Source: Rhodobacterales bacterium 52_120_T64
Lineage (GTDB): Bacteria > Pseudomonadota > Alphaproteobacteria > Rhodobacterales > Rhodobacteraceae
Length of the DNA stretch: 64,000 nucleotides
Assembly (NCBI GenBank): GCA_002162875.1
Contig: MABA01000004.1
Location: 248,001 to 312,000 of the forward strand
Direction of reading: 5' to 3'
A program made the position numbers and the translations under genes. Every line of letters begins with the position of its first letter. Positions within the stretch are counted from its first letter, which is position 1. Of the stretch, positions 5,697-59,214 are shown one piece after another. The notes under the pieces are model-generated. The model saw only the letters and a list, made by a program, of their open reading frames with translations, ran no database searches and was not told where the DNA came from.

Positions 5697-6209
5697 TTAA
5701 ACGAGTCCGACGACGGATAGTTGGTAATATATTAACGTAGCGCTCATTCCCAAACCTAGCGGAAAATTCTTCACTTTGGAGGTCTTTTCAATCCGCCACG
5801 ATTCCCAGTTATCCGTGATTGGGTTCATGAAGCCGAGCTTCCCGATTATCTTATGTAGGACGACGCCAATAATGGCGAAGATTGACAACTCGAAGAGGAA
5901 GGAAGCGATGTGAGAATGATCGACGAACAGGGCCATGGCAGCGGCAAATTTAGCGTCTCCGCCACCTATTCCGCCAAAGGAAAATAGGGTGAAACCGACG
6001 GCCAGTACGATAAATCCACCAAGCAAGCGCCAGAGAAGCACATCAAACGGCAGTAAAATTGCACCGGAAATTACAAAAGCACCTGTCATCAGTAATACCA
6101 AAATATTGGGTATTTTCATGTACTTAAGGTCGCTCCATGCGGACCAAAGTGCAAATGGAGTGGCGACTGCAAGGAAAATGTAGTTTGCGAAGCTGATGTC
6201 AATATTCAT
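5697..6209 (-). CDS. cpaA: Tad prepilin peptidase CpaA/TadV
   Basis: Membrane aspartic protease that cleaves and matures Flp prepilin. At 170 residues it has several predicted membrane helices. Both catalytic aspartates are visible: D in AWSDLKYMKIPN near residue 27 and D in the GGGDAK motif near residue 85. The length fits the short TadV class, which lacks an N-methylation domain. The ATG overlaps the stop of the upstream TPR lipoprotein gene by four bases (ATGA), showing it belongs to the Tad operon. The Flp prepilin at 15748-15927 is the expected substrate. Confidence 0.93.
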   Translation of the reverse strand: MNIDISFANYIFLAVATPFALWSAWSDLKYMKIPNILVLLMTGAFVISGAILLPFDVLLWRLLGGFIVLAVGFTLFSFGGIGGGDAKFAAAMALFVDHSHIASFLFELSIFAIIGVVLHKIIGKLGFMNPITDNWESWRIEKTSKVKNFPLGLGMSATLIYYQLSVVGLV

Positions 6210-7051
6210 AGCGACGCCAGCAGTGATACAGCGGGTGCGAAGTGCTGTGGATGAATGTCGATTGCATCGGCCAAAAGCCCGCGGGCGACGTCAGTGTCTC
6301 CATTTTTGATAGCCTCTCGCGCGAGATTATACAGCAGGATAGCACGCTCTTTATCATTCATTGGAATGACCGGAAGTCGGTAAATCCCTTGTTTTCCCAA
6401 CGTGATTACAAGGTTATTCTTGGCCGTGAACATTTTGGAGTCCGCGGAAATGGCTTGTTTAAACAGTTTTTCGGCGGCTGAATACTGCATGCGTTCCAGC
6501 TTGGAAATACCCCAATTATTCAAAACCTGTGCGGGGCGAGTGGTTAGCCCGCGCGCGATATCATAGAAATTATCGGACTTTTCCCATTCGCTATTGTGGT
6601 CAGCAACCAGCGCTTCAAGGAAATACCGGTCAAACGTTTCAACCGTTGGCGGGATAGCGTTAAGTTGCACGCGCGCCTCATCCCATGCGCCGTTGCGAAC
6701 CAACGCGTCCGCGTATTTGAGCCGATCGTTGCTGTCAGCTTGCCCGTCTTCAATTAACATTTCGTAAACGAGAGCGGCTTCGGCGTATTGCCCATTTTGA
6801 ACAAGTGCCTGAGCGTATCCCTTTTTTAAGTCAACGCGCTCTGGCTCAGCGGCTAGTGACGCACGGAAAAATGCGACGGCCTCGGCTGGGTCGGCGAGGT
6901 TTAACATGATGTCGTTCAAGCCAGTCGCGTCGATAACGTTGATGGGACCAAGGTCCGCATTTTTCTCCTCTTCGGTCATTTGTGCGCAACCGGCAAGGAC
7001 AATACTTAAGGCAAGACCTGCGCCTATTGTTTGTAGAATTGTAAGGCTCAT
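6206..7051 (-). CDS. tadD: TadD-type TPR lipoprotein (Tad pilus assembly)
   Basis: A 281-residue outer-membrane lipoprotein candidate. The signal peptide ends in the lipobox LAGC near residue 22, followed by tetratricopeptide repeats from about residue 55 to the end (for example AQALVQNGQYAEAALVYEML and NNWGISKLERMQYSAAEKLF). TadD proteins act as pilotins or assembly factors for the RcpA secretin in other Tad systems. It is followed with a 4-base overlap by cpaA and preceded 14 bases upstream by a second, shorter TPR lipoprotein. Which of the two performs the classical TadD role cannot be told from sequence. Confidence 0.85.
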   Translation of the reverse strand: MSLTILQTIGAGLALSIVLAGCAQMTEEEKNADLGPINVIDATGLNDIMLNLADPAEAVAFFRASLAAEPERVDLKKGYAQALVQNGQYAEAALVYEMLIEDGQADSNDRLKYADALVRNGAWDEARVQLNAIPPTVETFDRYFLEALVADHNSEWEKSDNFYDIARGLTTRPAQVLNNWGISKLERMQYSAAEKLFKQAISADSKMFTAKNNLVITLGKQGIYRLPVIPMNDKERAILLYNLAREAIKNGDTDVARGLLADAIDIHPQHFAPAVSLLASL

Positions 7052-7065
7052 CTGCTCGCCCCTTC

Positions 7066-7632
7066 TTATTTGTTTCCTAATAAAAGATAGCTGCCGTTTC
7101 CGTATCGGACCAGTGAAAAGTCGTACTCTCGTGTGATTTCTGTGGATTGTTCGTAAATAAGGCGATTTGAGAGGATCAGGTTTTGGCGGATCAACTCAGA
7201 GTTTCCATTATTGACACCGAACGCGACGCGAAAAGCTTGTCGCGCCTGTTGGTAGTCACCAAGGCTTATCAGAACGACACCAAAATTGTTCCATGCAGAA
7301 GCTGACTCAGCATATTGCTGGACAGCTTTTTCCAAAAGTGTGTGGGCCTGCATTAGCCGTCCAAGGCGTAAGTTGGCTGATCCCATGCCGCTTAATACTT
7401 CGGCATTTACACCAGTCTCTGAAGCTGCGCGTTGGTAGGCGGATAAGGCGAGTTCAAATTCTTCAGCCTCCATCAGGCGATGAGCAACCGTGATAGCATC
7501 GACACGCGGTGTACGTTGAGTTCCAAATGGCACTGGCGGGCCGGAACGTTCATCCGGCGTTAACGCGAAATTGGTCGGCTGACATGCGCTCAGGGCTACC
7601 AATAGAATAGCTTTAACTGCGAGGCGAAGAAT
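7066..7632 (-). CDS. Second TPR lipoprotein of the Tad locus, probable ATT start
   Basis: A TPR protein of 188 residues if started at 7632. The only ATG/GTG/TTG start in frame near the N-terminus is TTG at 7602, which would leave just five residues before the lipobox LSAC, too short for a lipoprotein signal. An ATT codon at 7632-7630 shares one base with the tadC stop (TAATT, like the common TAATG coupling), has GGTGA just upstream, and gives MLRLAVKAILLVALSAC, a complete lipoprotein signal peptide. I therefore call ATT as the start, which is unusual. TPR repeats follow from about residue 55 onward. A sequencing error altering an ATG is the alternative. Confidence 0.78.
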   Translation of the reverse strand: MLRLAVKAILLVALSACQPTNFALTPDERSGPPVPFGTQRTPRVDAITVAHRLMEAEEFELALSAYQRAASETGVNAEVLSGMGSANLRLGRLMQAHTLLEKAVQQYAESASAWNNFGVVLISLGDYQQARQAFRVAFGVNNGNSELIRQNLILSNRLIYEQSTEITREYDFSLVRYGNGSYLLLGNK

Positions 7633-8624
7633 TAGAAGTCACCATTGCCGAGGAGGTTAACGTAAATGTCGTAAATCGACGGGCCAACCATAATGATCAG
7701 CAACGGAGGAACTGTAAACAACATGGTGCCGATGGTAAGTTTCGTGGGCAACACGTTGGCTTTTTCTTCGGCACGCAGCACACGTTTGTCACGCATCTCG
7801 TCAGCATAAACACGCAGAGCATCCGAAATGGACGTACCAAAGTTAGCGGATTGTACCAACACAGTAACAAAAGAGCTGATATCATTAACGCCGCAGCGTT
7901 CTGACATATCACGCAGCACCGTTACGCGGTCTTTACCAGCACGCATCTCGTTCGCAACCACTTCGAATTCCTCTGCAAGTGTCGGCGAGGACTTCCTGGT
8001 TTCTTTGGCTACGCGCAAAATGGCCTGGTCGAGGGATTGTCCTGCCTCGACACAAACCAACATCAAATCGAGTGAGTCCGGGAAGCCGTTGGTTACATCT
8101 TCTTGACGTTGTTGCAAACGCCGCTCCACCCAATAAGAAGGCAACATGTATCCAATACCGCCCGGGATCAAGATTGTAAGCAACATGCTGGACATCGTCG
8201 GTTCGCCCGGTTGAATGAGAACATAAAGAACACCGACCGCAAGAAACCCGACGCCCATCATCATTTTGGCGAAATTCATGGTTTGAACTGCCGAGGGGGA
8301 ACGATATCCGGCCTGAATAAGTTTTAGGCGAGCCGCTGATAGTTCTTCTTCACCCTGAGGTTCTAGATATTCGGAGAATTTATCAAGCATCTCCCCTTTG
8401 CCAGCATCAAAGCGTAGCTTGTTGGATTGGTCAGGTCCACCCGTTGCAGTCGCGGATGGTCCGCGCCGTGTTGGCAGTCTTGAGAATTGATCAACCTCTT
8501 TCTTGAACAGAACAGGGAGGGCGACAAGTATAAAAAACACTCCGAAATAACCGATTACGAAAAACGGTGCACTTGGGCCAATCATGGCGCTCAAGAATTC
8601 CCAAATCTGCAAAACCATTTCCAT
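7632..8624 (-). CDS. tadC: Tad pilus inner-membrane platform protein TadC
   Basis: A 330-residue inner-membrane protein with a type II secretion F (T2SSF) domain: DSLDLMLVCVEAGQSLDQAI near the middle and membrane helices before and after it. It forms the Tad assembly platform with TadB. The family pairing is clear because tadB lies immediately upstream in the same direction. The gene starts 20 bases after the tadB stop; its own stop overlaps the ATT of the following lipoprotein gene by one base. The length is usual for TadC. Confidence 0.94.
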   Translation of the reverse strand: MEMVLQIWEFLSAMIGPSAPFFVIGYFGVFFILVALPVLFKKEVDQFSRLPTRRGPSATATGGPDQSNKLRFDAGKGEMLDKFSEYLEPQGEEELSAARLKLIQAGYRSPSAVQTMNFAKMMMGVGFLAVGVLYVLIQPGEPTMSSMLLTILIPGGIGYMLPSYWVERRLQQRQEDVTNGFPDSLDLMLVCVEAGQSLDQAILRVAKETRKSSPTLAEEFEVVANEMRAGKDRVTVLRDMSERCGVNDISSFVTVLVQSANFGTSISDALRVYADEMRDKRVLRAEEKANVLPTKLTIGTMLFTVPPLLIIMVGPSIYDIYVNLLGNGDF

Positions 8625-29201: not shown

Positions 29202-30115
29202 ATGGACAAACGCCCAACGATAATTGACGTCGCGCGCCATGCGGGGGGCAAATCGACGGTTGCGTTGGTTTTACAAAATAGCAGTTTGTTAAAAGTGAAA
29301 CGCGCGCCGCGGTCGAGGAGTCGATCAAATTTTTGGGCTATGTTTATAATCGCGCAGCCGCCAAACTGCGGGGTTCCGGTGTTGGGTTAATTGGATTGGT
29401 GATCAACGATCTTCGCAATCCGCTTTTCGCGGAATTCGCAATCACCGCCCAGATGACTTTTTCCAAGCATGGATATGCCACAGTGATCGCAACCACAGAC
29501 GAAAATCCGGATATTCAGAATCAGGTGATTTCGTCGATGCTGGAACACGACGTTTCGGCGCTGTTGATCTCACCGTGTTATGGTGGGGACGTAAAAATAA
29601 TTTTTCATATCGAGCGCTCTAACACTCCAGCCATGTAAGTGCGCCGACGGGTTTACAGCCGAACGGATTTGTTCCCGTTTTACTCGATGGATTACGAAAC
29701 CGGTGGGCGCCGAACATCTGATCGATAAAGGGGCCTGCAACATCGCTTTTGTTGGCGGCGTCGAAGACGGTGCTATTGAGCTGGAACGGATGTCTGGCTA
29801 TCTGCAGGTTATGCAAGAACATAAGATAGTTCCAACGATGCATTACGGACGCGCGACCAGAAAAATAGGCCGCGCCGCCGCCGTCAAGTTTTCAGAGACC
29901 AATCAGAATATTGATGCTGTGATATGTTTCAATGAGGTCGTAGGATTGGGAATGTTGTCCGGTTTTGCCCAGACCGGTAGCATTGTCGGGCGTGATATTT
30001 TACTTGTCGGGTTCGATGATATTGAGGAGTACCAACAAGTATACCCGAGTTAAGTTATGTGCGGTGTGATGTTGAAAAGTTTGGAAAAACATGGCGGAAC
30101 TTGTCGTTACCCGCT
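29202..30115 (+). pseudogene. Broken LacI-family transcriptional regulator
   Basis: The helix-turn-helix is visible as MDKRPTIIDVARHAG then KSTVALVLQNS, with residues missing between them, followed by a frameshift into VKSETRAAVEESIKFLGYVY and GLIGLVINDLRNPLFAEFAI. Further shifts near 29635 and 29700 lead to LIDKGACNIAFVGGVEDGAI and the ligand-binding end ILLVGFDDIEEYQQVYPS. The tail continues in another frame as VRCDVEKFGKT and then runs into glycerate-kinase sequence. It was the local repressor of the catabolic operon and is now dead. Confidence 0.85.
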
Positions 30116-30119
30116 ATGG

Positions 30120-30865
30120 GTATTTCGACCGGTCGCTGGTGTTGAAATTAGTGAATCTGCTCATCCAGTGCCCGACGAAAATGGTCTGAAGGCACCCGAA
30201 CGAATTTAGGACATACTGCGAAAACTTGGACCAGAAGATTTCGTTCTGGCGTTGATTTCCGGTGGTGCTCGGTGCTGATGACTGCACCAGCAGGCGACAT
30301 CAGTAACAAAGAAAAACAAGAATTAAATGCGGCTCTTTTTGCATCGGGTGCGCCTATAGGTCAGATGAATATTGCGCGTCAACATTTGTCGCGCGTCAAA
30401 GGGGGGCAGTTGGCAGCGGTCTCTTATCCAGCGCGGATGTTGTCGTTATTGATCTCGGATGTGCCTGGAGGTGATCCTGCTGGCATACCCTCCGGCCCAA
30501 CGGTTGGCGGCAGCAGCACGCATAAACAGGCACGACTCGCATTGTCTATCGGCGCGGCACTAAAATCTGGCGATGATCCAGTTCTGCTTTTGTCTGGCGG
30601 AGAATGTACTTTGACGCGTCGAGCGGATGGGTGTGGCGGTCCAAATGCCGAGTTCTTGTTGGCTGCCGCCATCTCTCTTGGTGGCGCAGAAGGCATTTAC
30701 GCTATCGCTTGTGACGCCGATGGAGTGGACGCTGGAGAATACCTAAAGGGAAACGATAGTCATGAATTTTTCGCTGCGGTCGAAGATCAAGGCATAACAG
30801 GTCCAACTTTTACGAATGTTAACGACTTTCGAGCAAGTCTGATCACCCCAAATAAGGGAATTTGA
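30120..30865 (+). pseudogene. Broken glycerate 2-kinase (MOFRL family)
   Basis: VEISESAHPVPDENGLKAPE near 30145 and ILRKLGPEDFVLALISGG near 30212, with a stop between them, are followed after a frameshift by the long frame 30272-30865: GAPIGQMNIARQHLSRVKGG, SLLISDVPGGDPAGIPSGPT and LLSGGECTLTRRADGCGGPN, ending in TNVNDFRASLI. The N-terminus is missing and the middle segment (normally about 70 residues between the two conserved blocks) is deleted. Intact enzymes phosphorylate D-glycerate. It closes the decayed catabolic block. Confidence 0.85.
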
Positions 30866-58665: not shown

Positions 58666-59214
58666 TTACTGCTGCTTGAGCGGGTTAATCATCATCACCA
58701 TCTGGCGACCTTCCATCTTGGGCATCATATCAACTTTGCCCAGTTCCGTGATGTCACCAGCAACGCGGTGCAACAACTTGCGACCTAAGTCCTGATGCGC
58801 CATTTCGCGGCCACGGAAACGCAGAGTTATTTTCACTTTGTCGCCGTTTTCAAGGAACTTGAACACGTTGCGCATTTTTACGTCGTAATCGTGCGTATCG
58901 GTGTTCGGGCGAAATTTCACTTCCTTAACCTCGATAATCTTTTGCTTCTTGCGCGCCTCGGAATCACGTTTCTGCTGTTCGTATTTGAACTTGCCGAAAT
59001 CCATGATTTTCACGACGGGCGGTTTCGCATTTGGGGAAATTTCCACCAAATCGAGTCCAACCTCTTGCGCCATTTCCATCCCTTGAGCGGGGGAAACAAC
59101 GCCTACATTTTCGCCTTCGGCGCCAATTAGTCGAATTTCTGCGGATGTAATGCGTTCATTGACGCGGGGTCCGGTGTCGCGCTGCGGTGGCGCGTTATGT
59201 GGTCTACGGGCTAT
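58666..59214 (-). CDS. infC: Translation initiation factor IF-3, ATA start
   Basis: IF-3 checks start codons on the 30S subunit. The N-domain ([20 protein letters not shown]) and C-domain ([20 protein letters not shown]) are typical. Between an in-frame TGA and the first ATG (at 59079, inside the N-domain) there is no ATG, GTG or TTG, so that ATG is too late. The frame opens as ATA at 59214 with AAGGA about ten bases upstream, giving 182 residues beginning with (M)[11 protein letters not shown] as in relatives. Non-AUG starts are the known basis of infC self-regulation, seen as ATT in E. coli. Confidence 0.92.

Follow-up and report, generated by a model that had tools for sequence, protein, structure and literature searches.

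From which codon is a lipoprotein gene translated when its reading frame offers no ordinary start ahead of a complete signal peptide? The window analysed here (the whole stretch of 64,000 nucleotides) carries such a gene on the minus strand, directly after tadC. The initial annotation proposed that it starts at an ATT overlapping the tadC stop, that it is coupled to tadC, and that its output may follow the level of IF-3.

An ATT codon at the junction of tadC and the lipoprotein gene

The features of the junction and of its neighbourhood are as follows.

7632..8624, minus strand: tadC (T2SSF domain, PF00482, E 9.5e-20), the upstream partner
7639..7643, minus strand: GGTGA, Shine-Dalgarno (SD)-like, within the last tadC codons, spacer to ATT 6 nt
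7632..7634, minus strand: tadC stop codon TAA, base 7632 shared with ATT (TAATT)
7630..7632, minus strand: ATT, the putative start of the TPR lipoprotein gene (TadD-like) and the sole one leaving a full lipoprotein signal; ATT or ATC in 8/8 species of the clade
7582..7632, minus strand: predicted lipoprotein signal MLRLAVKAILLVALSA-C with lipobox LSAC, Cys codon 7584-7582
7066..7632, minus strand: TPR lipoprotein gene (TadD-like), 188 aa from ATT, matching Pfam TPR families
6206..7051, minus strand: the next TPR lipoprotein gene, which begins with ATG and served as control; its start was canonical at all related loci that could be resolved

On the minus strand the junction reads ..CAATGGTGACTTC[TAA]TTCTTCGC..., and tadC ends in GGT GAC TTC TAA. 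An in-frame TGA two codons upstream of ATT closes the lipoprotein frame, and only one ATG, GTG or TTG lies in that frame ahead of the lipobox Cys, namely the TTG at 7602-7600. Its product would begin MVALSAC, in which three residues (MVA) precede LSAC and six precede Cys; the count of five residues before LSAC in the initial annotation was therefore slightly off. The product initiated at ATT would begin MLRLAVKAILLVALSAC and place 16 residues ahead of Cys. Both the single base shared with the tadC stop and the GGTGA ahead of it (7643-7639, 6-nt spacer) were borne out, and reading of the frame together with conservation in the clade described below confirmed that ATT gives a full lipoprotein signal where no usable ATG, GTG or TTG does. 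The predicted duplex of GGTGA with the 16S tail is of moderate energy (-7.2 kcal/mol). Folds of the junction RNA were no more stable than those of shuffled sequences, and a structure hiding the start was rejected on that ground. By our reading of the ORF scan, the lipoprotein gene and infC are the only genes in the 64,000-nt window lacking a canonical start.

The position directly after tadC, the lipobox and the TPRs fit TadD, which in P. aeruginosa is a TPR lipoprotein acting as pilotin of the Tad secretin (PMC10499894). The gene here likewise encodes a predicted TPR lipoprotein of a Tad locus. A TadD is expected to be needed for assembly of the secretin and to bind the secretin C-terminus; neither the sequence nor a low-confidence model singles out TadD here. 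The match to TIGR02521 (type_IV_pilW) was partial (43.5 bits against a cut-off of 154), and the PDB matches listed included a weak one to PilF (E 0.005) and no TadD chain. The AlphaFold model of the lipoprotein was of low confidence (pLDDT 55) and was set aside.

Elsewhere in the window, at 29333-30865 on the plus strand, three ORFs in different frames, each preceded by a long open stretch, look like the fragments of a single LacI-type regulator; either a pseudogene or assembly indels would account for the split.

Conservation of the start within the genus

The lipoprotein gene was present in 12 of the 13 genomes of the genus. In the remaining one (G010, 98% complete) no match to either tadC or the lipoprotein gene was found, and its Tad locus seems to have been lost. 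Eight species form a supported clade in the tree, and their junctions read CTAATT or CTGATT/CTGATC, with ATT as the start in seven and ATC in one. In all eight the last base of the tadC stop (TAA or TGA) is at the same time the A of the start, and an SD-like stretch is present. The spacing from start to Cys is 16 residues, or 18 in one species with a 2-residue insertion. Arg at residue 3 and the lipobox Cys are invariant across the clade, and from this Cys onward 113 of 172 alignment columns are invariant. The four other species of the genus that carry the gene have ATG, at a -4 or -1 overlap. In one genome (G011, locus L004) tadC falls into two frames that overlap, probably through a frameshift in the assembly.

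The eight species are well diverged. Only 12 of 165 fourfold-degenerate columns of tadC and the lipoprotein gene are invariant among them, and mean pairwise fourfold identity is 0.46 for tadC and 0.51 for the lipoprotein gene, which is near saturation. Therefore, too little time since divergence is no explanation for the kept ATT/ATC codon. ATT or ATC would also result if an Ile codon were conserved, a caution offset by L001, L003 and L005, in which an in-frame stop two to four codons upstream leaves no canonical start ahead. Taken together, conservation lends strong support to ATT as the start and to the base that it shares with the tadC stop, and the near-cognate start is, as read from these sequences, a conserved feature of the lipoprotein gene.

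These comparisons bear on two simpler accounts of the ATT. An error in the sequence, or an ATG that mutated to ATT only recently in this strain, would be suggested by the rarity of ATT starts and by nothing further. Its probability is now virtually negligible, since assemblies of seven other close species have ATT or ATC, and not ATG, at this codon; an error at the ATT is excluded by them. The initial annotation had named ATG at this codon in relatives as part of what would refute it, and for the near relatives this check went in favour of ATT. In the second account the protein would begin at an internal TTG, GTG or ATG, or would arise as a fusion by a -1 frameshift from tadC. The TTG at 7602 is indeed present, and in some species the frame of the lipoprotein continues without a stop into tadC. 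Against an internal start, the open frame of L003, L006 and L008 is free of ATG, GTG and TTG up to Cys, and where other clade species do have one it leaves only 4-13 residues. Against a frameshift, the in-frame stop lies just two codons before ATT in L001 and L003, leaving almost no room, and the overlap (TTC TAA or TTC TGA) lacks a slippery heptamer. It seems very improbable, then, that either operates, and both the start at TTG 7602 and the frameshift fusion were rejected on the clade frames and the overlap sequence.

Near-cognate starts in other genera

In a survey of the family, one genome per genus was taken and 109 further junctions were read; genera followed up in addition were picked for their codons, so that the counts are not frequencies. 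Outside the genus of the window, three genera had no canonical start at least 14 residues before Cys, those of G081 (ATT), G194 (CTG) and G060 (CTG). In the genus of G081, a second species (G308) also has ATT, and in both the codon lies 9 nt past the tadC stop, just behind AGGTG; a third species recovered in the follow-up of that genus, G310, has ATG, unlike these two. In the genus of G194, CTG stands at the same place in 7/7 species. In four of them (L027, L177, L179, L182) the frame ahead of Cys contains no canonical start, L180 has unusable late ones only, and L178 and L181 also offer GTG or ATG. G060, the sole member of its genus, has a CTG overlapping the tadC stop. In the nine species with ATT (two) or CTG (seven) from the genera of G081 and G194, the near-cognate start is found some 9-12 nt past the tadC stop, which indicates that strict overlap is not required.

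A FastTree phylogeny of 144 tadC plus lipoprotein rows gave five changes between canonical and near-cognate starts, one of them an ambiguous pair. L045 (G122) and L124 were doubtful cases and were left out of the near-cognate count. In genus g121, L044 and L192 (G132 with ATA, G343 with ATT) have the codon one base past the tadC stop, with N-termini MKTT.. and MVKP..; as an additional lineage this pair was set aside as ambiguous, since an ATG within tadC, 30 codons before Cys, may serve instead, and the SD is weak. From these sequences, near-cognate starts seem to have arisen in this gene, by drift or by selection, on at least four separate occasions within the family (ATT/ATC, ATT, CTG and CTG).

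Control gene and SD strength

The next TPR lipoprotein gene of the operon was put through the same test at 62 loci, including those of the near-cognate clades. A canonical start at a fitting place was found at 58. At the other four, two genes have ATG when inspected by eye (an early Cys had been picked) and two had been read in the wrong frame.

The median SD duplex energy was -8.3 kcal/mol at 19 near-cognate sites and -4.2 kcal/mol at 100 ATG sites (Mann-Whitney p 8e-6, a value that is uncorrected for kinship and overstated, the sequences being related). Energies ranged from -6.4 to -14.1 kcal/mol in the clade and from +0.1 to -3.7 in those species of the genus that have ATG. For GUG and UUG, the SD is known to compensate for a weak start (PMC5622118).

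These values are relevant to the possibility that coupling is strong enough to make the start codon nearly irrelevant, the near-cognate codons being neutral accidents of relaxed drift without regulatory meaning. Several unrelated near-cognate codons in one gene would be expected on that account, and the ATG species of the same genus, with their poor SDs, presumably rely on coupling. But a one-base reversion to ATG should then recur, and 8/8 clade species keep ATT or ATC despite near-saturated synonymous divergence. Furthermore, weaker codons go with stronger SDs, which suggests that the codon is not irrelevant. We regard drift of this kind as a real possibility, though not the favoured one. 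On the favoured reading, the gene is translated from the ATT, which would be kept working by coupling to tadC and by the SD; we hold this to be very probably the case, with the coupling itself suggested by geometry.

infC and a possible role of IF-3

The second gene of the window lacking a canonical start is the following.

58666..59214, minus strand: infC (IF-3), ATA start at about 59214-59212; ATA in all 11 genus members with the infC start recovered

The initial annotation had drawn a parallel between this ATA, which was found as described, and the ATT of the lipoprotein gene. ATA was found in infC at 11 of the 12 loci of the genus, the twelfth (L056) being cut off at the infC start. It was also found in L051, L060 and L061 (genomes G007, G008 and G004), whose lipoprotein gene starts with ATG. 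An ATA in infC is therefore no predictor of an ATT lipoprotein start, and it was rejected as a specific marker of the trait.

The ATT might be kept so that lipoprotein output, and hence pilus assembly, follows the IF-3 level in parallel with the ATA of infC. In E. coli, IF-3 disfavours AUU generally, with infC and pcnB as cases and with infC autoregulated in this way (PMC9410913), so some IF-3 sensitivity is to be expected of any such codon. In one study the efficiency of coupling was lowered by overexpression of IF-3 (reviewed in PMC12548453). In S. aureus, the conserved AUU of cvfC1 and AUA of ccpN, shown to be starts by ribosome profiling and reporters, give about 10% of the output of AUG, and one of them varies with the medium (PMC13009471). 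Against such a sensor stand the ATA of infC throughout the genus (recovered starts), including the three species with an ATG lipoprotein gene, the use of CTG in other lineages, and comparative data in which no tie of pilus genes to the IF-3 level appears. A regulatory role of IF-3 for the lipoprotein is possible on general grounds, and retention of the ATT for that purpose appears quite unlikely.

Discussion

The favoured reading, translation from a coupled weak start, would work as follows. Translation of tadC would bring ribosomes to the tadC stop, where the SD-like purine stretch in the last tadC codons may hold or recruit a 30S subunit; initiator tRNA would then pair with the overlapping AUU and start the lipoprotein. 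The overlap would tie translation of the lipoprotein to that of tadC, coupling and SD would make up for the poor ATT codon, and as a net effect the lipoprotein may be made in small amounts that follow tadC. Of the coupling claimed at the outset, what stands is the geometry, that is, the 1-nt overlap conserved in all eight clade species.

Overlapping gene pairs are translationally coupled, often in an SD-dependent manner (PMC6728339, PMC12548453). The junction resembles termination-reinitiation pairs of the trpE/trpD type (-1 nt), which likewise have a 1-nt overlap of stop and start and an SD inside the upstream gene. However, these studies concern NTG starts, unlike the ATT here; the common overlap is NTGA (PMC12548453), and no mention of an AUU or near-cognate start was found in PMC12548453. 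cvfC1 and ccpN, which like the lipoprotein gene are distinct from infC, also combine a conserved near-cognate start and a strong SD, but they are other genes in another phylum, with starts seen in experiments and not, like the putative ones described here, read from sequence. Moreover, cvfC1 opens its operon, while the lipoprotein start sits on or shortly behind the stop of the gene before it. A near-cognate codon disfavoured by IF-3 (PMC9410913) is common to the lipoprotein gene, E. coli pcnB (AUU) and infC (AUU in E. coli, ATA in this genus); in contrast to the lipoprotein, which has no known link to IF-3, infC controls itself, and unlike the lipoprotein gene, infC here does not overlap an upstream stop.

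In genome-wide reconstructions, a switch from AUG to AUU was recorded for 1 of 61,358 ancestral AUG starts (PMC5622118), although such codons tend to go unseen in reconstructions that, like these, are built on annotated starts. Annotation limited to ATG, GTG and TTG removes the signal peptide from this lipoprotein in the genomes concerned. A nearly absent type of switch has seemingly been made by one gene in at least four lineages, beside an overlapping or adjacent upstream stop. Read from the sequences, the recurrence suggests that at the coupled junction the identity of the start codon counts for less than usual, or that a weak codon is preferred. A more far-reaching proposal, which we put forward only tentatively and consider rather unlikely, is that start codons switch recurrently at the junction between tadC and the lipoprotein gene in Rhodobacteraceae, codons rejected by IF-3 having repeatedly been selected there together with strong SDs, setting a low lipoprotein dose that would depend on translation of tadC and on initiation-factor levels. 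The sister species with ATT and with ATG provide a natural set for asking whether a coupled gene can escape the start-codon rule.
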